Positions 146-42,369 of a stretch of DNA of 42,469 nt are shown in pieces (positions within the stretch are counted from its first letter, which is position 1; every line of letters starts with the position of its first letter). The notes beneath the pieces are model-generated. The model made no database searches, was not told where the DNA came from, and was given only the letters and a program-made list of their open reading frames with translations. Source of the DNA: a virus; the IMG/VR virus record IMGVR_UViG_3300048927_000593, positions 1-42,469 of that record; one strand, 5' to 3'. Both the position numbers and the translations under genes were made by a program.

Positions 146-235
146 GGAGAGATGCCAGAGTGGCCGAATGGGACGGATTCGAAATCCGTTGTACCTTCAC
201 CGGTACCTAGGGTTCGAATCCCTATCTCTCCGCCA
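146..235 (+). tRNA. tRNA-Ser (anticodon CGA)
   Basis: The acceptor stem GGAGAGA (146-152) pairs with TCTCTCC (225-231), followed by discriminator G and an encoded CCA (233-235). The anticodon stem ACGGA/TCCGT encloses loop TTCGAAA with anticodon CGA, which reads UCG serine codons. A long variable arm (GTACCTTCACCGGTAC region) is typical of class II serine tRNAs, and the T loop reads GTTCGAATC. The gene is the integration target: its last 27 or so bases are duplicated at the far end of the prophage, so the tRNA remains intact after integration. Confidence 0.97.
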
Positions 236-238
236 TTA
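212..238 (+). repeat. attL core (27-bp direct repeat, tRNA 3' end)
   Basis: Bases 212-238, from the T arm of tRNA-Ser to three bases beyond CCA, are identical to 42343-42369. Identity stops on both sides (G211 against C42342 and T239 against C42370). This is the crossover region left by site-specific integration. Confidence 0.95.
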
Positions 239-2898: not shown

Positions 2899-4113
2899 TC
2901 AATGCCTAAAACCGAGCATTTTTGAAACGATGCCCGCCATGCTCTTGGTATCTTTTGGAATCCACCTGCCGTAGTGCCTTCTCACCATGGTGGTATCCGC
3001 ATGACCCAGCTGCCGAGCTACCCATTCGACCGGCACATAGCTCGACAGCATCTGGCTGGCAAACGTATGCCGGCATTGGTTGGCCCCACGATGCCTAACC
3101 TCAGCTTTCTTCAAATGAGCCGTAAACCACTTGCTCAAAATTTTCCCGTTCCAAATCAACCCGCTGGCAGAGCTTCGGAACAGAAACCTGACCCTCGCAG
3201 GCTTTGTCGTGATGTTGTCCCGCTGTGTGACGCTGATATCGGTGTACGGCACATCGCTGGCCGCTGTCAGGATCTCCCGCATCAATTCCCGAGCGGGATC
3301 AATCAGCTCCACCACCCGCACCCTGGAGCGTTCCTTGGGCACCTTGAACTGCCCAACCACCAATGCGCGTCGAACATGAACAGTGCCAGCCTTCAGATCC
3401 ACATCTTCAACGGCAAGCGCAATCAGCTCGGACAGTGAAAGTCCCGTCCAGCAGTTGAACACGATCATCCTGGCATCGGCCATTCGCTCTGGATCTGCCG
3501 CTCCAATCCGCTCTATTTCATCCCGGCTGAAAGGGTCGGCATGTTCGTAATCGGCGTCTGTGCTGACGTTGCTGATTCTCTCCAGCGGATTGGTTTTCAG
3601 AATCCCATCACCAAACGCATCAGCCCAAACCCCGCGCACCACGGTAAAAATGTCGTTCACCGTTTTCGGTGCCAGCTTTTGCTTCAATAGCTGAGCCTGG
3701 AACAGCTCAATGTCGCTCTTGCTGACGTCGACGATCCGAGACTGTCCAAACTTGTTCTCGACGTGCACAGCCTTGCTCTCGTAGTTGATCACCGTGCTGG
3801 CAGCCTTTAGCGCGCGCTGCACCTCCAGCCAACGGTCTATACCTTCTTTCACGGTTCGTTTGGCTGAATGCCCGGCGCTCCCCGAGAGCGTCTTTGCCCT
3901 TGGGGAGTTGGGGAAGTGTGCGGCGTAGTCAAAGCGGTTCTCCTTGATCTCTGCAAGGATCGCCCGCCGCTTGTTGTCCGCGTAGGCGATAGAGGCCTTG
4001 TTGACCGTTACAACGCCTTCCAGGGGCTCTCGGCAGCGTTGGCCGTGGAGCATGAAGCAGATGCGGAGCTGCTTGCCGTTCAGCTCCACACCCGTTGGCA
4101 TTTTCCCGCTCAT
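2899..4113 (-). CDS. int: Tyrosine site-specific integrase, 404 aa
   Basis: This catalyses integration and excision at the tRNA-Ser att site. The N terminus is the short arm-binding type of phage integrases, followed by a SAM-like core-binding domain (about residues 90-190) and a C-terminal catalytic domain. The end matches the family: CRHTFASQML, then LGHADTTMVRRHYGRW with the nucleophilic Tyr near residue 380. Two normally conserved positions differ: the Arg of the TGLR-S-E box is Ser (TGLSLSEL, near residue 224), and the His of HxxR is Asn (NQCR). The start at 4113 is chosen because its ATG overlaps the excisionase stop as ATGA; an ATG at 4131 is also possible. Confidence 0.95.
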   Translation of the reverse strand: MSGKMPTGVELNGKQLRICFMLHGQRCREPLEGVVTVNKASIAYADNKRRAILAEIKENRFDYAAHFPNSPRAKTLSGSAGHSAKRTVKEGIDRWLEVQRALKAASTVINYESKAVHVENKFGQSRIVDVSKSDIELFQAQLLKQKLAPKTVNDIFTVVRGVWADAFGDGILKTNPLERISNVSTDADYEHADPFSRDEIERIGAADPERMADARMIVFNCWTGLSLSELIALAVEDVDLKAGTVHVRRALVVGQFKVPKERSRVRVVELIDPARELMREILTAASDVPYTDISVTQRDNITTKPARVRFLFRSSASGLIWNGKILSKWFTAHLKKAEVRHRGANQCRHTFASQMLSSYVPVEWVARQLGHADTTMVRRHYGRWIPKDTKSMAGIVSKMLGFRH

Positions 4114-4325
4114 GGCTGGCCTGCCATCCACTTTTCGATTTCGTCACGGTTGTAGACGATTACGTGGGCAGGGTCCCATCGCCAATGTTTGCCTTCCAGC
4201 CAAATACCCCTAGAGCGGTATTTGCGGACCGCTTCGGTGCTCAGGCCAAAAACGGGGAAAAGCAGGTCTTGGCGAAACCAGGTTCCCGGTGTGACGCTGA
4301 TCTCCAATTTCTCGGCGGTGTTCAT
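4110..4325 (-). CDS. xis: Excisionase-like DNA-binding protein, 71 aa
   Basis: This small basic protein probably bends att DNA and directs the integrase towards excision. It has a winged-helix/MerR-like segment (FPVFGLSTEAVRKYRSRGIW, then W-x-W) and ends IEKWMAGQP. Its stop codon overlaps the integrase start (ATGA, 4110-4113) and its own start overlaps the end of the upstream gene by 4 bases, so all three are translated in a coupled fashion. The call rests on size, fold features and position next to int. Confidence 0.75.
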   Translation of the reverse strand: MNTAEKLEISVTPGTWFRQDLLFPVFGLSTEAVRKYRSRGIWLEGKHWRWDPAHVIVYNRDEIEKWMAGQP

Positions 4326-15970: not shown

Positions 15971-16831
15971 TTACGGAGTTTGTGGAGAGGTTGCTGTTTT
16001 GCTTTCGATTTGTTTTTGAATTTTTCTTGCTATTGTGATTTTGTTGAGTTTTACCAGTATGAAAAATACTACCAGTATCGAGATAAATGCCACTACCAGT
16101 AGGAAGGCTTTTTGCTCTTTTACGCCGTCCTTTACATGCGCGCTGTAGTTGGAGTCAAGAAAAAGATTGCAAATTGTGTTGATGCGGTTTTCGGAGAAAT
16201 CAGTGTTTATGAATTTTTTAAGTGATTCTGGCGATAGGCACTCTGTGGTTGTAAGCGTTGTGTTAGTCCAGAAATGAAATTTTGCCCCGCTCTCTGACAG
16301 ATAGAATGAGGGAGTTTCTGGAGCATTCCTTAGTGACACCATTAGGTGTTCGGAACCTGCAAGTGGAGGGGTGACGGTGATGATTGCGAAAAATAGAATG
16401 AGCAACCCAATGAGAATGCGATAAGGCGCTTTTGAAAACAATTTTTCTTTAAGTGTTAGAGCGTTAAATTCTTTCCAATCAATAAAGGTTCTTATTTTAG
16501 AAACTTCCCTATGGCAGAGTTCGTTTTTGGAAATCCATTCTTCGGCTTGTTTTGCCTGTGTTAGATTTTGTGCGGGGATGTTGAATTCGAATCGATAGTG
16601 CTCGATTTCGCGAAGGTTCTTGCGTGCGATCTCATAAGTTGTATCTTCGAATTTTTCAGAGCCACCAAAAAAGCGCCACATCATGTCGCGCAAAAATATC
16701 AGTGAGCCAGATCGTGAGTATATATAAAATACTAGTAAGCAGATCGCAACTCCGCTAAATAGGCCGGCCACTGCTGCATAGTTTTCAAAAGTCCAGCTTA
16801 CGATGTTGTCGTTTATTTTTGATTCAGACAC
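15971..16831 (-). CDS. Three-TM membrane protein moron in the head operon, 286 aa
   Basis: I cannot name this family with confidence (it may be DUF6216). Three transmembrane segments are visible: AVAGLFSGVAICLLVFYIYS (about 20-40), ILIGLLILFFAIITV (about 140-155) and FLLVVAFISILVVFFILV (about 245-265), with a cytoplasmic-looking charged region between the first two and a probable periplasmic region between the last two. Start is GTG 16831, with AAGGA upstream. It is AT-rich and transcribed against the late operon between protease and capsid genes, a classic moron arrangement, suggesting lysogenic expression and perhaps superinfection exclusion. Confidence 0.85.
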   Translation of the reverse strand: MSESKINDNIVSWTFENYAAVAGLFSGVAICLLVFYIYSRSGSLIFLRDMMWRFFGGSEKFEDTTYEIARKNLREIEHYRFEFNIPAQNLTQAKQAEEWISKNELCHREVSKIRTFIDWKEFNALTLKEKLFSKAPYRILIGLLILFFAIITVTPPLAGSEHLMVSLRNAPETPSFYLSESGAKFHFWTNTTLTTTECLSPESLKKFINTDFSENRINTICNLFLDSNYSAHVKDGVKEQKAFLLVVAFISILVVFFILVKLNKITIARKIQKQIESKTATSPQTP

Positions 16832-33100: not shown

Positions 33101-34255
33101 TTACCAGTCCTCGTGGAGAGTTCTAATCTCCAACGGTGTGAGGCGGAACTGCCAGCCGAATTGGCGCTGAACGCTGTGAACTTTTACATGGCATTGGTTG
33201 CAAAGAGATATCAGATCCAGATCGTTCTCACATCCAAATCGGTCGTAAGCTATATGGTGGACACATTGGGCCATTTCTGTGCAGGCTTGACAGATACCAC
33301 TATCTCTTTTCAGAATTCTTGAGCGGGTTCGATACCATTCGTCTGAAGTGTAGTATGTGCCGAATCTGGAGTTGTCTTGAAATTTTATCTCGTTGTTCCA
33401 GATTTTGTTTTGTGTATCAGTTTTATATTTTTTATAAGCGGCTCGCCATTCTGAACCGAGTTTTTCAGCCCAGCGGGAATATGCTATCTCAAGGTTTTTT
33501 TTCTTGGTTTCATCGAAAATAGGTAGCGATTCTACATGTGCTACCAGTTTTTTTGATACCGTATTTATGTGGTGCCCGCAATCTTCGCATTGCGAAACTA
33601 TAGCAATGTTACCGTCATTATATATTCTTCTAGTGAGCCTTGAACTGGTGTGGCTGCATTCGCCCGGGGTGTGTGGGCGAGGGTTTTCTAGTTCATAGAC
33701 TTGTCGAAATGTTGAGTCGTCGAATTTCGGAACTTCACTGCCTTCATTCATAGCCTCCGAGAATACTTTATATCGTGCATCCGCCCATCTGGAGTGTTCT
33801 TCCTGAATCTGTATTACGAATTGTGTGTCAAAAGGTTCAACAGCACTCCAGTCAGCAACCGAGTCTTTTCGATGGCTTCGTGTTTGTATACCGCAGGTAG
33901 CACACTGTGAAACCAGTTGACTGGTGCCATTCTCATAGCAGCGTAATCTCAAACTAACCTTAGGGTGATTACAGGGGCCTGGCTTGAATGGCTCTGGGTT
34001 TTCTCTCTCGAAAATTTCTAAGGCTTGTTCTGGACCACTTACGAATACATCGTAGTCACGAGGAGCTAATGGGAAGTGATCTTTCAGATCTTTCATTTCT
34101 TTACTGAGAACATTAGATCTATTTTGAATCGCAATGCGGTCTGCTGGGGTCGTTGCCTCAGCGTATGCTAAAGAAAGATCAAGCTCTTTCATTTTTAGAT
34201 CGCGCATTTGACGCAGATAGTCATCAAATGCGTATGCATCTAACTGAGAGTCCAT
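33101..34255 (-). CDS. HNH nuclease with two zinc-ribbon repeats, 384 aa
   Basis: A cargo nuclease, AT-rich and opposite to the lysis genes. Two repeats of about 100 aa each carry a Cys-His plus Cys-x-x-Cys ribbon: GPCNHPKVSLRLRCYENGTS...SQCATCG (about 90-125) and GECSHTSSRLTRRIYNDGN...SQCEDCG (about 195-230), each followed by a helical SRWA- or HSRWAD-containing stretch. The C-terminal HNH domain (about 310-370) has RDSGICQACTEMAQCVHHI and SLCNQCHVKVH. The N-terminal 80 residues are helical and charged. The start at 34255 has AGGA upstream. A defence nuclease that recognises target through the ribbons is a reasonable guess, not shown. Confidence 0.85.
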   Translation of the reverse strand: MDSQLDAYAFDDYLRQMRDLKMKELDLSLAYAEATTPADRIAIQNRSNVLSKEMKDLKDHFPLAPRDYDVFVSGPEQALEIFERENPEPFKPGPCNHPKVSLRLRCYENGTSQLVSQCATCGIQTRSHRKDSVADWSAVEPFDTQFVIQIQEEHSRWADARYKVFSEAMNEGSEVPKFDDSTFRQVYELENPRPHTPGECSHTSSRLTRRIYNDGNIAIVSQCEDCGHHINTVSKKLVAHVESLPIFDETKKKNLEIAYSRWAEKLGSEWRAAYKKYKTDTQNKIWNNEIKFQDNSRFGTYYTSDEWYRTRSRILKRDSGICQACTEMAQCVHHIAYDRFGCENDLDLISLCNQCHVKVHSVQRQFGWQFRLTPLEIRTLHEDW

Positions 34256-34555
34256 TCTTGAATCCTAGTCGTCTTTACGAAATTAAATGCTTCATGGCAC
34301 GCTTAGTTTAATCGGAGGAAAAATTAACTGTAACGATGCGGCGAAGCTAATTTTTTATGTTACAGCCTGCAACGGCCGTACGCGAACCGACAGCTAGATA
34401 ACTATTGAAGGAGAGCGATCAATCCGGATGCAGCAACATCCCGACTGACCGCCAAACTCGCAGACCAAGCCTGCAAGTCCAGCCAAGGCTCCCCGCTTTG
34501 CGCGCAAAGCACAGCGAGCCTAGCACCTGTTTCTGCACACAGAGAAGGCTTGCAC
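34256..34555. other. Intergenic region between the HNH and methylase genes
   Basis: Divergent promoters probably lie in the AT-rich left part (34260-34360). In the right part the methylase frame is open back to about 34408, without a canonical start (an AAGGAG is followed by AGCGATC), so an extended N terminus is possible only with a rare start codon. No RNA structure or repeat is obvious. Confidence 0.4.
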
Positions 34556-35350
34556 ATGACCACCCCAATCATCCCTTGGATGGGCGGCAAACGCCACCTG
34601 GCCGACCGCCTCATCCCGCTATTCCCACCCCACGAGTGCTACGTCGAAGTCTTCGCCGGCAGCGCTGCCTTGTTCTTCCTCCGCCCCCAACCCGCACCTG
34701 TTGAAGTCCTCAACGACATCAACGGCGACCTGGTATGCCTGTACCGCGTCGTACAGAATCACTTGGAAGAGTTCGTCCGCCAATTCAAGTGGGCGCTCAG
34801 CTCACGGCAGGTATTCGAGTGGCAAAAGATGACCCGCCCGGAAACCCTCACCGACATCCAACGTGCGGCCCGATTCTTCTACCTCCAACACCATGCGTTC
34901 GCTGCCAAAGTCTCCGGCCAGACCTTCGGTACGGCGACAACAGCGGCGCCGATCAATCTGTTACGGATCGAGGAGAACCTTTCCGCCGCATGGCAGCGGC
35001 TGGCCGGAACCTACGTGGAAAACCTGCCATGGCTCGACTGCGTCCAACGCTACGACCGGCCACATACCTTTCACTACATGGACCCACCGTACTGGAAGGT
35101 CGCAGGCTACGGTGTCGATTTTCCCTTTGATCAATACGAGCAGATGGCCGAATTCATGCGCCAGTGCGAGGGGAGGGTGATGGTCAGTATCAACGACCAC
35201 CCGGATATCCGGCGGGTATTTGATGGTTTTCACTTTGAGACGCTGGATGTTCGATACACCTCAGCTAACCAGCGCCAGGCGACGACAGAACCGAGCGGTG
35301 AACTGGTGATCATGAGCTGGGAGCCTGAGGTGCTGGGTGGCTTGTTTTGA
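34556..35350 (+). CDS. Dam-like (D12 class) adenine DNA methyltransferase, 264 aa
   Basis: Methylates adenine using SAM, with GATC as the usual target of the family, not provable here. Motifs in order: PWMGGKRHLADRL (SAM-binding FxGxK-like), VEVFAGSAALFF, EVLNDINGDLVCLYRVVQ and the catalytic DPPYW (about residue 181). Start ATG 34556 with AAGG upstream. No restriction partner is adjacent, so it may be an orphan that protects phage DNA from host restriction or affects regulation. Confidence 0.92.
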   Translation: MTTPIIPWMGGKRHLADRLIPLFPPHECYVEVFAGSAALFFLRPQPAPVEVLNDINGDLVCLYRVVQNHLEEFVRQFKWALSSRQVFEWQKMTRPETLTDIQRAARFFYLQHHAFAAKVSGQTFGTATTAAPINLLRIEENLSAAWQRLAGTYVENLPWLDCVQRYDRPHTFHYMDPPYWKVAGYGVDFPFDQYEQMAEFMRQCEGRVMVSINDHPDIRRVFDGFHFETLDVRYTSANQRQATTEPSGELVIMSWEPEVLGGLF

Positions 35351-35409
35351 ACCAAGCACAAATCGGATAGCCGCTCTGTGGCGACACGGCTATCCGGGCT
35401 GGGTTGCTG

Positions 35410-35658
35410 TCAGTTTGCAGATGGGCTTTCTCGCTCCAGCACCATGTCGATCAGGAGCCGAGCGTTCTCAACCAGTTGAACGACGCCAAAGGCTTGCTGA
35501 CGTTGTGCGTCATCCAGCTCGAAGATGCATTTGTAGGCGAGCGCGGTTGCTGATTGGAGAAACTCACTGGCGTGAACGAGCGCTTTTTCGGTGGTGATAT
35601 CCGGGCGGATGTTGAAAAGGCCCTGTGAGGTATCTGCGTTATCGTCAATGGGATTCAT
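35410..35658 (-). CDS. DUF6124-like Pseudomonas protein, 82 aa
   Basis: The protein matches the pattern of a small Pseudomonas family (DUF6124 as I recall): TTEKALVHASEFLQSATALA, FELDDAQRQQAFGVVQLVEN and a helical C terminus. GGGAGGT precedes the ATG at 35658. It is downstream of the C4-like RNA (35850-35950) on the same strand, so it could be the RNA's target. Function is unknown. Confidence 0.75.
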   Translation of the reverse strand: MNPIDDNADTSQGLFNIRPDITTEKALVHASEFLQSATALAYKCIFELDDAQRQQAFGVVQLVENARLLIDMVLERESPSAN

Positions 35659-35849
35659 ACGCGAACCTCCCGTTGCGGGTGGCGGTTTTTAACGCGGGTG
35701 GGCGGGTATTTCAGTCGATTGAATTGGCTGACTGAAAATTCCGATATGTGTAACGAAGTATTGATTAGACGTAATGGGCGGCGCCCTGGCGTGAAAGGGG
35801 GATAAGTCATCTCCATACCCTCGGACAATGATAACCCTGTCACCCGCCG

Positions 35850-35950
35850 TTCTGACACGGGATGGGTGGCAGACCGTACGGGGGTCAGAAAACCGGCGTC
35901 CGAGGGAACCGGCCAGGCCGAAGCCTGCCCCGCACGGCCCGCCATAGCAA
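35850..35950 (-). ncRNA. C4-like antisense RNA
   Basis: On the minus strand this region reads CTATGGCGGGCC, GTGCGGGGCAGGC with a TTCG loop, GGCCTGGCCGGTTCC, GCCGGTTTTCTGACC and GGTCTGCCACCC, the order of conserved blocks I recall for P1/P7 C4 RNAs. A CAGGC/GCCTG hairpin is at 35914-35927. C4 RNAs down-regulate translation of a downstream gene in the same transcript; here the next gene on the strand is the DUF6124-like one. Exact ends are approximate. Confidence 0.75.
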
Positions 35951-36082
35951 TGCAGCGGCAAGATGCTGGTGCATCTGTCTGCTAGAGAAGGGCGTTACCG
36001 CGCTTCGGACGTTCGGGGTTCTGACTCCCGGTCACAGGATGGCTGTGACGTTGGAAAGCGTACCGTGGTGAGAAGGATGGGA

Positions 36083-36223
36083 TCAAGTGGCTTGGTTGTT
36101 GGCTGTTTTTGGGCGCCAGCAGACGGCTAAAAAGTGCAGAATCCAGCTAAATGCAGATATTGCCCCGATGCAAGAGACGAGGAATATAGGTCGCATTAGA
36201 TAAGCGACAATGCTGGACGGCAT
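36083..36223 (-). CDS. Small membrane protein, 46 aa
   Basis: ATG 36223 has GGAG 7 bases upstream; the stop is TGA at 36083-36085. The peptide has a hydrophobic stretch LVSCIGAISAFSWILHFLAV (about 15-34), then a basic polar tail. It lies upstream of the C4-like RNA on the same strand and could be the first gene of that transcript. Not recognised. Short size makes it tentative, but the ribosome site and TM support it. Bases 35659-36082 otherwise hold only the RNA. Confidence 0.5.
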   Translation of the reverse strand: MPSSIVAYLMRPIFLVSCIGAISAFSWILHFLAVCWRPKTANNQAT

Positions 36224-36278
36224 GATGGCACTCCGCTAGTCTGCTATCAACAACTCAGCGAATCATTCAGGATCGATA

Positions 36279-36458
36279 ATGGAATATCTTACACACATAT
36301 TTACGTTTCTAGCTGGTCTGGGTGCAGGTTGGACCGCGAAAATTGTAGTCAGTAAAATTCAAATGAATAACTCTCAATCCAGAGAGACAGTGCAAAGTAA
36401 TAATACTGTCCATGGAGATATGTCGGCTGGCGACATGAATAAAAATAATCGGCAGTAA
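36279..36458 (+). CDS. Small membrane-anchored component of ABC-3C-like operon, 59 aa
   Basis: ATG 36279 has AGGAT upstream, and its TAA is 5 bases before the next start. The N terminus is a short transmembrane segment (YLTHIFTFLAGLGAGWTAKI). The C-terminal tail carries SNNTVHGDMSAGDMNKNN, 13/18 identical to SNNIVHGDMAARDINKLN near the N terminus of the next protein. Shared motifs in neighbouring genes suggest that the two bind or co-polymerise through this motif. A membrane effector recruited on activation is the model; it is inferred. Confidence 0.8.
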   Translation: MEYLTHIFTFLAGLGAGWTAKIVVSKIQMNNSQSRETVQSNNTVHGDMSAGDMNKNNRQ

Positions 36459-36463
36459 GTAAC

Positions 36464-37045
36464 GTGTCTGATCAGTCAAATAACATCGTACATGGCGACA
36501 TGGCAGCGAGAGATATCAATAAACTCAATATTGATATGCGCCAAGGTACTACTCTAAATGAGTTGACTTTGCTCTATGCACGTCTTCGTGCGGCAGAAGT
36601 TGATGAAAAGGATGGCAGTGGCTTCTGCGATAAACTCAACCATTATTTAGCCACCCCTACCGAAGGTGATGTCCGAGGCCTTGAAGCGAAGCTCCGAGAA
36701 AGCGGACGAACTGATCAGCTTTATTTTGCGATGAGTCAAAAAGAACAAGCAGCCAAGATGGTGATGCGGCAGCAGTCTTCTAGAGTAGCGCAGAGAATTT
36801 ACACAATTTTATTGGACGAACTCCACACAAATTACATGCTGGCAGTAACGCCTGTCATAGAGTCGGGTGGGGACCGAGTGGTAGTAGATGCTGCAATCAA
36901 TCGTATCCTTCATAATATATGTTCGATGCTCGGTGAAAATTTCTTGGAAATTTCAGTCAAAGACTTATTAGGTTTGCTGTATTTTCTTGGGGGTAATTGT
37001 CATATAAGGTGGGACAAATATGCTGATTTACCATCCAGCCTATGA
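36464..37045 (+). CDS. ABC three-component-type protein with GD-motif N terminus, 193 aa
   Basis: Likely start GTG 36464 (5 bases after the membrane peptide). Residues 5-22 contain the shared NNIVHGDMAARDINKLN motif. The rest is helical and ends LLYFLGGNCHIRWDKY, which I recall as characteristic of the C-terminal component of ABC-3C systems. It overlaps the next gene by 26 bases. ABC-3C systems are predicted phage-defence modules in which this part is a sensor/effector-recruitment component; no activity is shown. Confidence 0.75.
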   Translation: MSDQSNNIVHGDMAARDINKLNIDMRQGTTLNELTLLYARLRAAEVDEKDGSGFCDKLNHYLATPTEGDVRGLEAKLRESGRTDQLYFAMSQKEQAAKMVMRQQSSRVAQRIYTILLDELHTNYMLAVTPVIESGGDRVVVDAAINRILHNICSMLGENFLEISVKDLLGLLYFLGGNCHIRWDKYADLPSSL

Positions 37046-37520
37046 TGCATATCATTGCGTATTTCGAATGCTATCAATTTTGTCCGTAATTCCGAGCCTG
37101 GAGTACGACAAGGCTAGGTTACTCGACTTTTATCTGACTTTTCCTTCTGCGGTTCAAGGAATTACGCTCCCGAAAACGTTAACTTACGGAAAGCGTTTAG
37201 CTAAGAAGTTTGAGAATGTCTATCACGATCCGTTTGATCCGTCATTTATATTCAAGGATATGCGTGCCATTCAAATTTCGGCCGTTGGATGTTTGGTGGC
37301 GTCAGGAATAGTAAATCGGGCAAGCTATGATGATGGCATTATATTGCGAACAGACGTGAAGCTACCTGTTTCGTTAGAGGCTAGAATTTCAGGTTTTTTA
37401 GCAAGTCGTCCCGAAATAGGGGATTTCATCCTACGGGACCTAGCGATGCTTCCCTTGAGAGGTGTCAACGGTTTAAAGCACAGAACAGGCTTGTTGGAGT
37501 ATAAGTATGACATATCTTAA
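37020..37520 (+). CDS. ABC-3C-type middle component, 166 aa
   Basis: ATG 37020 follows AAGGTGG. The pattern LIYHPAYDAYHCVFRMLSIL at the N terminus and an LRDLAMLPLRGVNGL segment near the C terminus are as I recall for middle components. No catalytic motif is evident. It overlaps both neighbours (26 and 14 bases), so the three proteins are probably made in fixed ratio. Exact subtype not determined. Confidence 0.7.
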   Translation: MLIYHPAYDAYHCVFRMLSILSVIPSLEYDKARLLDFYLTFPSAVQGITLPKTLTYGKRLAKKFENVYHDPFDPSFIFKDMRAIQISAVGCLVASGIVNRASYDDGIILRTDVKLPVSLEARISGFLASRPEIGDFILRDLAMLPLRGVNGLKHRTGLLEYKYDIS

Positions 37521-39435
37521 GCCTACACTCAGTGTGCGTAGATTGTTAGTAATGCAAGGGGGGCATCGCGCTTTTGATTGCGACTTTCATGATGGGGTCA
37601 ATATTATCAGGGGCCGTAATAGCTCTGGCAAGACTACCATAATGGATCTTCTTGCTTATTCATTAGGGGCTGAGAATATTCGGTGGAAGCCAGAAGCGCT
37701 GATGTGTTCGGCGACGATGGTTGAGGTACATTTAAATGGGGTGTCTGCTACTCTGCTGAGAGACATCGAACCCGAAAGTCAGCGCCCGTTGAACATTTTT
37801 TGGGGAGGTATTGAATCTGCACTTACTGCTGGGGTAAATAAATGGGAGCGCTATCCATTTCGCCGCTCTGAGCAAAAAATCAGTTTTTCTCAAGCTCTCT
37901 TTTCGGCTTTGGAAATACCGCAAGCACAGGGTGCTGCTGCATCAAACTTAACAATGCACCAATTATTACGTGTTTTGTATGCAGATCAGCCTTCAGTACA
38001 TAGTCCTATATTTAGAGTTGATAGTTTTGATAGCGCTTTAACAAGGGATATGGTTGGCGGCTATCTTTGTGGTGTATCTGATGACAATTTGTATGCTGCT
38101 CAATTAGAGGTTCGGGAGGTTGGCAAGACGCTTGATAAAGTAGTTGGCGAGCTTCGCGGTATATTTAATGTGCTCGGGCGGTCCGGCCAAACACCTGATA
38201 TTGAAGCATCCAGAAGCAGAATCCCAGAATTGGAAGCCGAACGGCAAAAATTGACTGAGTATATCGTCAGCTTAAAAGGTGAGCGCTCACTATCAAAGAA
38301 AGAGGCTAATGCGGCCTCTGCAAAAGTCGATGGAATACGCAGTCGGCTAAATTCTGCAAATAAATATGAATCAGTTCTGAAGGATGGTTTGGTTAAGCTG
38401 AATTTGGAAATTGCTGATTCTAAGTTGTTTCTGAAGGAGCTTGAGGCAAGATTGTCTGGTTTAGAAGATTCAAAAGAAACTCGAAGTTATTTTGGAGCTT
38501 TGTCGTTTTTATTTTGCCCTAGCTGTTTGACGGAGTTAAAAGCTCACGCTTCCGAATCGCATGATTGCCACTTATGTAAGCATGAGCTGACCGAAGGTGC
38601 TAGCGACTCCAATATATTGAGGATGCGAAACGAGCTATCTATACAAATTAAAGAATCATCGATGCTTCTCCATGTAAAAGAAGAGGAGGCTGCTAAGCTT
38701 TCGCGAGATATTCCTTTGGCTGTGGAGGCTGTCAAGCGACTAGAGGTAGAATATGCTTCTATGTCTTCTCACTGGTCGAGTAATGTTGAGACGCTCCTTG
38801 AGGACTCGGCTCGACGGCTAGGTGCATTGGATGAGGAAATAAAGCAAGCTTATGAGGATCAGAAGCTTTACGCTGTTATTTCTGAGTTACAAAAGAGTCG
38901 GAGCGAGTTGACTGCTAAAATAGAAAGTCTTAATGATCTGATTGTTAGTTTGGAAAGGAAGCAAGAGAGCCGTAAAAGAGAAGTGTCGGCTAAGCTTTCT
39001 GAAAATATGGTCGCGCTGCTTAAGAAAGATCTTCATCTGCAGCCTGAGTTTATAAAAGCTAGTACGGTTGATTTCAGCTTTATTGATAACACCGTTTTGG
39101 TTAATGGGTCACGAAATTTTTCGGAAAGCTCCGCAGTCGTACTGCGGCATGTATTTCACTTGGCCTTGCTCAAGACAAGTACAGAGTTGCCATATATGCG
39201 AGTCCCTCGTTTTATGATGCTAGATGGAATTGATGATGGAGGAATGGAAAGAGAGCGAAGCCATAATCTTCAGTCCTTAATAGTGTCCGAGTGTGAGAGG
39301 ATTGAGGTTCCGTTCCAAGTGATTTATGCGACGTCTGAGATCAATCCGGAGCTCCAGGATGGTAAGCTAGTTGTTGGACGTTATTTTAATCCGGAATCTC
39401 GATCTCTTAATGTGCTAGATCCAATCATTGCGTGA
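37507..39435 (+). CDS. ABC-type ATPase of the three-component system (DUF3732-like), 642 aa
   Basis: SMC/Rad50-like ATPase. Walker A is GRNSSGKTT (36-44). A long coiled coil (about 210-540) is interrupted by paired CxxC motifs, FCPSCL (about 335) and DCHLC (about 353), a zinc-hook-like element. The C-terminal ATPase half has SSAVVLRHVFHLALL and the Walker B-like MLDGIDDGGMERERSHNLQ, where the usual second acidic residue after Asp is Gly. Similar DxI-DGG motifs are known from DUF3732. GGAG precedes the ATG. It is the last gene of the operon and is followed by a bidirectional terminator. Confidence 0.85.
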   Translation: MTYLKPTLSVRRLLVMQGGHRAFDCDFHDGVNIIRGRNSSGKTTIMDLLAYSLGAENIRWKPEALMCSATMVEVHLNGVSATLLRDIEPESQRPLNIFWGGIESALTAGVNKWERYPFRRSEQKISFSQALFSALEIPQAQGAAASNLTMHQLLRVLYADQPSVHSPIFRVDSFDSALTRDMVGGYLCGVSDDNLYAAQLEVREVGKTLDKVVGELRGIFNVLGRSGQTPDIEASRSRIPELEAERQKLTEYIVSLKGERSLSKKEANAASAKVDGIRSRLNSANKYESVLKDGLVKLNLEIADSKLFLKELEARLSGLEDSKETRSYFGALSFLFCPSCLTELKAHASESHDCHLCKHELTEGASDSNILRMRNELSIQIKESSMLLHVKEEEAAKLSRDIPLAVEAVKRLEVEYASMSSHWSSNVETLLEDSARRLGALDEEIKQAYEDQKLYAVISELQKSRSELTAKIESLNDLIVSLERKQESRKREVSAKLSENMVALLKKDLHLQPEFIKASTVDFSFIDNTVLVNGSRNFSESSAVVLRHVFHLALLKTSTELPYMRVPRFMMLDGIDDGGMERERSHNLQSLIVSECERIEVPFQVIYATSEINPELQDGKLVVGRYFNPESRSLNVLDPIIA

Positions 39436-39552
39436 CTTATTGATTGAGATTGCTTAATTATTCAGAGTGTTCATAAGTGAAATGGCTTAGGTTTATAGTT
39501 GCTGTTGTTTATCGTGTGGAATAACTCTGTAGCCGAAAACGGGTCATATTTT

Positions 39553-39601
39553 AGTATTCCAGAGTGCTGTTTATCTTGAGTTGTAGGCGCTCTGGAATAC
39601 T
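39553..39601. terminator. Bidirectional terminator between convergent operons
   Basis: AGTATTCCAGAG (39553-39564) and CTCTGGAATACT (39590-39601) are perfect 12-bp complements with a 25-base loop, followed by TTT on the plus strand and with AAAAT on the other side. Located between the ATPase gene and the convergent RloC-like gene, so it probably serves both. Confidence 0.75.
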
Positions 39602-39607
39602 TTTGCA

Positions 39608-42031
39608 TCAGTTCATTCGTTCTGGCTCGCCAATACTCTTCAATAGTGCGTTGTATTGGGCGGCATCAGCTGCATAAATTTTGTCTAATACGTAGTTTGC
39701 TACTTTGGCAATCTCGGGGATCTCTACTGGCTTAAAGCTTCTGTCTGGAACAGCTTCCAAGTGAGAGAACTCATTGTTTAGTCGATTAACAAGAGCGACG
39801 GCCGTATCTTCATCTTCTCCAAAAAATTTTCTTATCCGTTCAAATGCGTCGCTTCTGTCGTCATGATGCGGGTACTTAAAGAATAGAAAGGCTTCAAGGA
39901 ACTTCCGCAAGTTATTGCCGAAGCCAAAGAATGGTTCGTGGCTAGCTTGTGCTGCGGCTTGGTCTTTACACTTGTAGATCTGATGAAACAAGTAATGAAA
40001 CTCTGTGATATAGTCTTTGAGGTAAGAGGGCATGAGAAGGATATTACTTGCTGCGCCGTTGCGCTCAATCATGAAATGCTCATGATCGGAAACGCTCTTG
40101 GTCTTACCTTCGCCCGCAGGTATTTTCTTTGTTGGAATGGATAGTCGCTTAAGATATTTCAAAAAGTCTAAGTTGTGCGTAGAAATAAAAAGTTGCTTGT
40201 AACGATAGCTATTCGAGTTGTCTGCCTTTTTTATTGGCTTGGTGATCAAGCTTTCAATTAGACTGAACATGAAAAATATATGGTTGCTGTCCAAGCTTGA
40301 GATTGGGTCGTCAATGTAAATTATAAGTTCTTTGCCCTTGCTTTCTGGTTCGTCTAGTTTTGCAATAAAATAGCAGAATGCAATCAAGCTGCACTCGCCT
40401 TCGCTTAAGTTGTACGCAGCTTTGCCGTCGCGTGTAATCTCAAATTTAACGGTTACCTTGTCAGCATGGTCACGGGGTTCGAGCTTGAGGCCGTCATGGC
40501 CGAAGAAGTTGTTGAGCAGGGAGTTGACTCGCTCTGCCCCTTTTCGCTCATCTTTCTGCTTGGCTCTTAATATTTGAACTTTTGCCTGGGCGTCACGAAT
40601 CTCTTTTTCTGCGGATGTATATGCAGTGCTTGCAGTATCAGCTTTTGCCTTGAAGGTCGCTATACGGGTGAGTTCCTGTTCATAGGTTATCGCGTCCGCA
40701 AATGCAAATACGTCCGTTAGCCGAAGTGCATCTCTCGCGGCAGTCTTGTCTTTTTCCAGTGTCTTTGTTTTGCCATTGTTTGTTGCAATCAAAATATTGA
40801 TGGCATCTACATGTTTCTGGATTTCTTTCGGGTCGTGCAGTGGCTGAGGCAGCTTCACAGAAAGGAATGGATTGTTTTTCCGTGATTCCAGCGATCTCTT
40901 GAGCGCTTCCACATCACTCTTATAGACACCCAATGCTTCGGCAAGCGCCTGGTTGCTCACGTTAAACGCAGAACGTTCCTCGGTGTAAAATTGATCGCTT
41001 CTCAACGAGACGAAAGCATAGATGGCGGTAATCTCGCAATTGACCGAGACTATGGCCTTTTCCAACGCGGTTTCAAGAACACTGGATTCTTTGCTGAAAT
41101 GCTCGTCGAGCTTCTGCCAGACGTCATGAGGCAAGCTCTGGCCGCAGAAGGCGCAGGTTTCGCGTTTATCGCGATGGTGGGCGATACCTTCTTTGACCCA
41201 GAGTTGCAATACACTGTCGTTGAGGAGTTCTTGAATGGGTTTGGTCGGCGTGATCACTTTGGACAGAATTGGCTCGGCTTGGCCTCTCAGGGAATCAAAC
41301 TGTAGGGCAATGCCAAGTGTGTCAGTAATGTCAGGCAAAGCTTCTTGCTTGAGCAGCGCAAGCTTTCCAGCTTGCTCCTGAAGCGTCAGCGGAACGAATT
41401 CAGTTTTTTTAGTGGCAGCAATGTCACGTCTGATGTGGTCGATGTTGTAAACGGGAACCCCGTACTGGAAGTTCTTCTTGATTTTGTCAGCCGCATGCGT
41501 GCGCAGCTTGCCTTCCAATGCAGTTACAGTGGTGTCGTGGTTGATCTTGGTGAGGTCGCGCTGTTTTCTCGTTGCCTCAAGGTCGAAGTAAAGACCAGTC
41601 TTGGATTCAACGCTTCCCAGCTTAGCCTCGATGGCAGCAATGGCATCGTCGATCTCTTTGTTCTGCTCACCGACTATGGCGAAGGTCTTGATCTCGCCGC
41701 CATCCTGATTGACCAAAAAGCTGAGGTTATCAGTCACAAAATCGCGGTTGTAGACTCTTACGTCGTAGTTGTGAGTCAGTAGGTCCGAGCATGTGACTAC
41801 GCCTTTGTCGCCCGTAACGGTGAAGGACGAGCCAACGTAGTTCAATGGCAGTCTATGAGTCTCCAGTGCGCGAAAGACACGAGAAAGGGTCGTCTTTCCC
41901 GAGTAGTTGCGCCCGTAGAGAATATTCAGACGCTGGAAGATCTTCACGTTCTTCCCGTTGTCCCTAACGGCTTTCTTCCACTCAAGTCCGGAAAAGCTAC
42001 CAAAGTTTGCGATGTCTATCTGATTGATCAT
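39608..42031 (-). CDS. RloC/PrrC-like ATPase with predicted anticodon-nuclease domain, 807 aa
   Basis: ABC-type ATPase and probable C-terminal nuclease. Walker A GRNYSGKTT (40-48), a coiled coil with a zinc-hook CAFC (about residue 293), signature NLSEGECSLIAF (about 543), Walker B LIIYIDDPISSLD (about 573) and ISTHNLDFLKY. The C terminus has NNLRKFLEAF (Arg and Glu 4 apart, about 707) and NRLNNEFSH (His about 755), matching the Arg-Glu-His triad of PrrC/RloC and an Rx6H HEPN motif. RloC cuts tRNA anticodons on DNA damage or phage restriction. Start ATG 42031 has AGGA upstream; a 42-aa longer frame has no support. Confidence 0.85.
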   Translation of the reverse strand: MINQIDIANFGSFSGLEWKKAVRDNGKNVKIFQRLNILYGRNYSGKTTLSRVFRALETHRLPLNYVGSSFTVTGDKGVVTCSDLLTHNYDVRVYNRDFVTDNLSFLVNQDGGEIKTFAIVGEQNKEIDDAIAAIEAKLGSVESKTGLYFDLEATRKQRDLTKINHDTTVTALEGKLRTHAADKIKKNFQYGVPVYNIDHIRRDIAATKKTEFVPLTLQEQAGKLALLKQEALPDITDTLGIALQFDSLRGQAEPILSKVITPTKPIQELLNDSVLQLWVKEGIAHHRDKRETCAFCGQSLPHDVWQKLDEHFSKESSVLETALEKAIVSVNCEITAIYAFVSLRSDQFYTEERSAFNVSNQALAEALGVYKSDVEALKRSLESRKNNPFLSVKLPQPLHDPKEIQKHVDAINILIATNNGKTKTLEKDKTAARDALRLTDVFAFADAITYEQELTRIATFKAKADTASTAYTSAEKEIRDAQAKVQILRAKQKDERKGAERVNSLLNNFFGHDGLKLEPRDHADKVTVKFEITRDGKAAYNLSEGECSLIAFCYFIAKLDEPESKGKELIIYIDDPISSLDSNHIFFMFSLIESLITKPIKKADNSNSYRYKQLFISTHNLDFLKYLKRLSIPTKKIPAGEGKTKSVSDHEHFMIERNGAASNILLMPSYLKDYITEFHYLFHQIYKCKDQAAAQASHEPFFGFGNNLRKFLEAFLFFKYPHHDDRSDAFERIRKFFGEDEDTAVALVNRLNNEFSHLEAVPDRSFKPVEIPEIAKVANYVLDKIYAADAAQYNALLKSIGEPERMN

Positions 42032-42230
42032 TGATCCATTCCTACCCTGGTGGACTTTCAGATGCGTACGACAGATTGATGCTTCATTTTCCGAAGAGCG
42101 TTCTATACCAGATTTTGCACGTGGCCGCTGCTGGCCGTAAATTTTGCTGCCAGCCATTTACTAGCAAGAAACGGGGCCGTTCAGGCGGCATGTCCCCATT
42201 AATTGAGAGACAGTCGTGCCAACGAAGACT

Positions 42231-42273
42231 TAGGGCATTCCTAGGGCAAACCCGAGGCCTTTCTAGGCATTCC
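42231..42273 (+). promoter_or_regulatory. Candidate integrase arm-type sites (right)
   Basis: TAGGGCATT (42231-42239) and TAGGGCAAA (42242-42250) are spaced 11 bp, as are the left sites 306-314 and 317-325. A related TAGGCATTC follows at 42264. They lie about 100 bp from attR. Bases 42032-42230 show no convincing gene; they hold the promoter region of the RloC-like gene. Confidence 0.5.
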
Positions 42274-42313
42274 CACACCATGCTAAAATCCAAAACCACC
42301 GAGATAGACGGCC

Positions 42314-42338
42314 TGAAGCGGCCTCGGGGGCCGCTTCA
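42314..42338. repeat. Perfect 10-bp hairpin beside attR
   Basis: TGAAGCGGCC (42314-42323) pairs with GGCCGCTTCA (42329-42338), loop TCGGG. It abuts the attR core and has no T-tract, so it may be an integration-host site, a structural element or a terminator remnant. Purpose unknown. Confidence 0.6.
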
Positions 42339-42342
42339 AAGC

Positions 42343-42369
42343 GTTCGAATCCCTATCTCTCCGCCATTA
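42343..42369 (+). repeat. attR core (27-bp direct repeat)
   Basis: Exact copy of 212-238. Only the T-arm 3' part, acceptor 3' strand, CCA and three following bases are repeated; the rest of a tRNA is absent, so this is the right junction. Confidence 0.95.

Follow-up and report, generated by a model that had tools for sequence, protein, structure and literature searches.

A predicted stand-alone RloC-family ribonuclease in the attR-side cargo slot of a tRNA-Ser(CGA) prophage

RloC has been characterized in Geobacillus kaustophilus (GkaRloC) and Acinetobacter baylyi (AbaRloC), and both enzymes are anticodon nucleases, though 33% identical to each other (PMC3874168). AbaRloC cleaves tRNA Glu and Gln, and GkaRloC excises the wobble nucleotide (PMC2610378, PMC3874168); replacement of any residue of the GkaRloC catalytic triad by Ala abolished activity (PMC2610378). 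The features by which Davidov and Kaufmann recognised RloC are a Rad50-like ATPase interrupted by a coiled coil with a single CxxC hook, and an Arg-x3-Glu-x36-52-His triad close to the C terminus, in which the His is often preceded by Ser. In the characterised enzymes the nuclease is kept latent by zinc hook and ATPase and is activated by linear DNA or double-strand breaks together with ATP hydrolysis (PMC2610378, PMC3874168). GkaRloC is hyperactive when a zinc-hook Cys is replaced by Gly. RloC and PrrC have been placed among the HEPN ribonucleases, with R-x6-H spacing (PMC3710099), and published evidence that RloC stops phage is thin, one recent survey listing it as not tested (PMC12322248). 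RloC genes usually occur without linked type I/III R-M genes, whereas PrrC (341-416 aa) is hsd-linked and has no zinc hook. Rad50 and SbcC share the ATPase head and the zinc-hook coiled coil, but Rad50 lacks a C-terminal HEPN domain and is partnered by Mre11/SbcD. A further point of comparison is Tha of an S. aureus prophage, likewise a prophage-borne HEPN ribonuclease in possible conflict with its own induction; it belongs to a different family and is activated by phage tail proteins (PMC11087260).

Here we describe an rloC-family gene in a viral stretch of DNA of 42,469 nucleotides, which is called the window throughout. It represents a temperate, lambda-like prophage whose integration site is tRNA-Ser(CGA) and whose host is a Pseudomonas-like bacterium. 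Genes for integrase, CI-type repressor, helicase/primase, terminase, portal, protease, capsid, tape measure, a gpJ-like tail protein and endolysin were found. Unlike the genes of G. kaustophilus and A. baylyi, this rloC adjoins one of the attachment sites of a prophage and has another defence system as its neighbour; in keeping with the family, no hsd genes occur among the neighbours scanned. The coordinates of the features are collected in Table 1.

Table 1. Positions of the rloC gene, its predicted functional elements and its prophage surroundings in the window
Feature	Position	Strand	Basis or remark
rloC-family gene, 807 aa	39608..42031	-	ATG at 42031, stop at 39608; frame intact
Walker A GRNYSGKT, residues 40-47	41891..41914	-	G40, G45, K46 50/50 in alignment
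Zinc-hook CAFC, residues 293-296	41144..41155	-	within coiled-coil insert
ABC signature LSEGE, residues 542-546	40394..40408	-	motif and alignment
Walker B / D-loop IIYIDDPISSLD, residues 570-581	40289..40324	-	motif and alignment
His619, linchpin/switch histidine (ISTHN)	40175..40177	-	invariant in 50-protein alignment
HEPN-type anticodon-nuclease domain (predicted), about residues 669-807	39608..40027	-	hhalign to PrrC; mainly helical model
R709-KFL-E713, catalytic triad (predicted)	39893..39907	-	motif, alignment, PrrC registration
H757, catalytic triad (predicted)	39761..39763	-	motif, alignment, PrrC registration
Hairpin between ABC-3C and rloC	39553..39601	.	U-tract only on + strand transcript
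ABC-3C CTD9 protein	36464..37045	+	4.6e-29
ABC-3C middle component MC5	37020..37520	+	5.1e-49
Rad50/SMC-like ATPase of ABC-3C operon	37507..39435	+	AAA_23; PADLOC LmuB
Tyrosine integrase	2899..4131	-	family profile match
attL, 3' end of tRNA-Ser(CGA) (tRNA 146-235)	212..238	+	27-bp repeat
attR, 27-bp copy of tRNA-Ser 3' end	42343..42369	+	repeat match

The start of rloC was set at the ATG because close homologues begin there, at the residue encoded by 42029-42031; a longer open reading frame up to 42157 was rejected on the same ground. The product lies within the published size range of RloC (658-897 aa). Pfam AAA_13 matched residues 24-782 with 491 bits (cut-off 36) and PADLOC PDC-S06 the full length with 1025 bits, and the PADLOC PrrC profile gave 49 bits with partial coverage. 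The label PDC-S06 probably covers RloC; the link is circumstantial and comes from P. aeruginosa PA14, where the count is two for both labels, as two PDC-S06 are reported for this strain (PMC11878078) and Davidov and Kaufmann singled it out as encoding two RloC orthologues (PMC2610378).

All ABC-ATPase motifs shared with PrrC (Walker A, signature, Walker B/D-loop and switch His) are present, and the ATPase is interrupted by a coiled-coil insert that carries the sole CxxC of the protein. Conservation was assessed in an alignment of 50 proteins, with relatives 17-86% identical, in which C293 and C296 (each 50/50), H619, R709 and H757 were invariant; residue 713 was Glu in 48 and Asp in two, and S756, which precedes the triad His, was Ser in 49 of the 50. 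Triad and hook were fully invariant in a separate set of 25 proteins that takes in plasmid and Pseudomonas chromosomal relatives, and nearly all full-length viral relatives showed the same motif pattern. In two relatives (L090 and L106) Asp replaces the triad Glu (RRVLD), with Arg, SH and hook intact. The hook occupies a place similar to C288/C291 of GkaRloC, and the triad 709/713/757 compares with R692/E696/H737 (GkaRloC positions as published); the likeness to GkaRloC and AbaRloC is one of published features.

The triad reads Arg709-x3-Glu713-x43-His757, and R750 together with H757 forms a HEPN-like R-x6-H (RLNNEFSH). When the last 150 residues were shuffled, an R-x3-E-x36-52-SH pattern arose 1.2% of the time; since the pattern is conserved across the 50 aligned proteins, with their wide span of identities, it is not attributed to chance. 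For comparison with PrrC, ten PrrC-family proteins were drawn from Pseudomonas genomes, each about 370-400 aa long and lacking both CxxC and a coiled-coil insert, and hsdS or hsdM adjoined the gene in all four loci whose flanks were scanned. Profile-profile alignment of the 50-sequence RloC set with the PrrC family (Prob 99.0) put R709, E713 and H757 on the invariant R, E and H of PrrC, and the registration was unchanged when the C-terminal domain was aligned alone (Prob 87.9). Besides this triad, the half of the ATPase with the ABC signature and Walker B aligned with PrrC. At the sequence level, homology of the C-terminal domain to the PrrC nuclease, with equivalent triad residues, is thereby supported. 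Membership in PrrC itself was rejected, given the 807 aa, the hook and the lack of hsd genes among the rloC neighbours scanned. The earlier note had listed the ATPase motifs, one CxxC and an Arg-x3-Glu...His set as signs of an RloC-type enzyme; all of these were found, as were the other sequence features that define RloC, and the Arg, Glu and His fall on the PrrC nuclease triad rather than outside the fold. Its number for the catalytic His, 755, was wrong and has to be corrected to 757.

An AlphaFold (AF2) model built on the 50-sequence alignment reached a mean pLDDT of 85.7 and superseded an earlier AF2 model with 16 close homologues (pLDDT 61.7). It consists of an ATPase head, long helical stretches flanking the CxxC on both sides and a helical C-terminal domain, in which R709 and E713 are placed on helix 704-719 and H757 just past helix 742-754, where model confidence is low (pLDDT 45-65). 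The best Foldseek matches in the PDB were Mre11-Rad50, cohesin, condensin and Lamassu, and they cover the Rad50 part of the model. Because no HEPN structure was among the matches listed, the HEPN assignment draws on the sequence profile and on published work. Among PDB sequences, the single protein as query gave no match, and the profile gave a weak match to Rad50.

Relatives of 62-90% identity form a mobile clade in Pseudomonas, beta-proteobacteria, Vreelandella, plasmids and prophages. Sixteen of 299 Pseudomonas genomes contained a relative at E <= 1e-30; four of these relatives are about 80% identical or more, and one of the four is fragmentary and interrupted by an in-frame stop. No gene adjacent to the rloC homologue was conserved across 22 loci with close homologues, which include Pseudomonas, Ralstonia, Paraburkholderia, Achromobacter, Alcaligenes, Variovorax and Vreelandella, plasmids of Pseudomonas, Comamonas and Erwinia, and two viral contigs; one small gene family recurred in two loci, at differing distances from the rloC homologue. 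Thus, rloC is a stand-alone gene that is mobile by itself. The nearest plasmid copy, on pG69, directly adjoins a multi-gene anti-phage cluster of phospholipase D-like, DUF1156, DUF3780 and DUF499 proteins. The DNA block common to the rloC locus and pG69 is 87% identical; it sets in about 105 bp ahead of the rloC ATG and reaches 19 bp past the stop. GC content was 46.9% for rloC, 43.6% for the ABC-3C genes and 57.9% for the phage backbone. Viral contigs gave no match when scanned with the single rloC protein, and 74 loci when scanned with the profile.

The earlier note had seen a defence hot spot packed against attR, with rloC convergent to an ABC-3C-type operon and both sharing one terminator. 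The 3' end of tRNA-Ser is indeed repeated, over 27 bp, at a place 312 bp upstream of rloC, and CTD9, MC5 and AAA_23 matches identify the convergent neighbour (36464-39435) as an ABC-3C operon. No effector domain was recognisable in the 193-aa CTD9 protein, whose N-terminal part is no more than a short stretch with the motif NNIVHGDMAARDIN. The terminator claim held for one of the two partners. The intervening hairpin folds strongly on both strands (z -4.68 on plus, -6.19 on minus); the rightward transcript continues with UUUU, so that by its sequence the hairpin reads as an intrinsic terminator of the ABC-3C operon, whereas a terminator for rloC is not established, because the leftward transcript has UAAAAU and no U-tract.

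The space between the Dam-like methylase gene and attR (34550-42343) is a recurrent cargo site in tRNA-Ser(CGA) prophages. An exact search of viral contigs for the 27-bp att core returned 51 stretches, among them ten attR-type ends with a recognisable Dam-like methylase gene, and the contents between methylase and attR varied by element. In the closest relative (L166), with a backbone 93-96% identical and homology up to 36071, an Mrr-type endonuclease replaces ABC-3C and rloC. Other elements hold Septu PtuAB (L140), a SIR2-like protein with AbiTii (L153), a GmrSD-like GmrSD/Schlafen protein (L147) or an HD protein (L180) in the slot. Several slots contain unrecognised genes, e.g. of 710 aa (L138), 318 aa (L151) and 376 aa (L155), which may be new defence candidates. 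On viral contigs 30 kb or longer, some ends of which may include host DNA, RloC relatives tended towards the ends: their mean relative distance was 0.30, where 0.50 was expected, and 17 of 28 lay within 6 kb of an end. The defence hot spot of the earlier note is therefore supported by the different defence modules that related prophages carry at this position.

Other candidate accessory genes were observed elsewhere in the window. Three genes at 365-2704 (307, 177 and 223 aa), of no or unknown family except that the last encodes a DUF2971 protein, lie between attL and the integrase gene and possibly mark a second cargo site. A gene for a DUF6216 protein (15974-16831, minus strand), in the head gene cluster between the protease and capsid genes, is likely a moron. 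A 384-aa protein encoded on the minus strand at 33101-34255, with the lysis genes on one side and the methylase on the other, shows weak IscB/HNH-like similarity at its C terminus (308-363) and has several Cys-containing stretches that recur; Pfam assigned it to no family with confidence, and the related attR ends compared had no DNA match at this location.

Could the gene be a decayed passenger without function? Relatives L054, L056, L057 and L061 are broken by in-frame stops, but here the frame is open and the motifs are intact, and selection has been strict: dN/dS was 0.10 for the whole gene and 0.03 for the nuclease domain against the pG69 copy (89% identity), 0.08 and 0.02 against a Pseudomonas relative (L017), and 0.04-0.10 and 0.02-0.03, respectively, across the comparisons. 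We consider decay highly improbable. The same data show the nuclease domain to be the part of rloC under strongest purifying selection, which also bears on the idea of a phage-borne Rad50/SbcC-like repair or recombination ATPase without a nuclease of its own. Such a role would agree with Rad50 and SMC proteins as top structural matches; it is nevertheless extremely unlikely, as Rad50 and SbcC lack a C-terminal PrrC-like domain (PMC2610378), whereas the rloC protein carries one with a conserved triad, and neither an Mre11/SbcD-type partner gene nor any other conserved partner was found beside rloC. The two low-GC convergent neighbours, rloC and the ABC-3C operon, might also be taken for one compound system. 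This is very unlikely, because relatives share no ABC-3C or other conserved neighbour among the 22 loci and the homologous pG69 block spans rloC only.

We regard it as likely that the gene encodes an RloC-family ABC-ATPase/HEPN ribonuclease that is complete and stands alone, is carried as attR-edge cargo and presumably acts in defence by cutting tRNA. The domain anatomy, the motif set, the triad equivalence with PrrC, purifying selection, stand-alone mobility and the position in the cargo slot are shown here, and a tRNA target, wobble excision, a DNA-break trigger and a defence role would follow by analogy with the characterised RloCs (PMC2610378, PMC3874168). By this analogy, the C-terminal nuclease would be kept latent by the Rad50-like head with its zinc-hook coiled coil and would become active when DNA ends, either of phage DNA or of host DNA that phage has degraded, are bound and ATP is hydrolysed; R709/E713/H757, the HEPN site, would then cut tRNA at the anticodon, translation would stop and superinfection would be aborted, so that lysogens would be protected from other phages. 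An RloC-family enzyme might instead cut another RNA or tRNA site, or respond to a phage protein rather than to DNA ends. Defence HEPN domains such as those of Tha and RNase LS cut RNA more broadly (PMC3710099, PMC11087260), and no characterised enzyme was placed in the clade of rloC here; nevertheless, triad and zinc hook match those of the tested RloCs, both of them anticodon nucleases in spite of their divergence (PMC3874168), and we judge this alternative rather unlikely.

A translation blocker activated by DNA breaks could sabotage the induction of the very prophage that carries it. In S. aureus such a conflict is real and is solved by an antisense arrangement of genes, Tha/Ith (PMC11087260); Tha has the antisense inhibitor gene ith, whereas no such gene was identified here. 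Since rloC is oriented against the late operon of the phage and lies at the attR edge, rightward lytic transcription (or excision) might silence it, and the cargo position might serve as a safety switch, a counterpart of Tha/Ith. This proposal, made by analogy, is speculative and we consider it unlikely.

The RloC family is already known, and this gene is a well-preserved further member. It would offer a convenient mesophilic protein for the questions of which tRNA is cut by RloC, what the trigger is and whether phage is stopped. Additionally, the locus points to a recurrent defence-cargo slot that extends from the Dam-like methylase gene to attR in tRNA-Ser(CGA) prophages.
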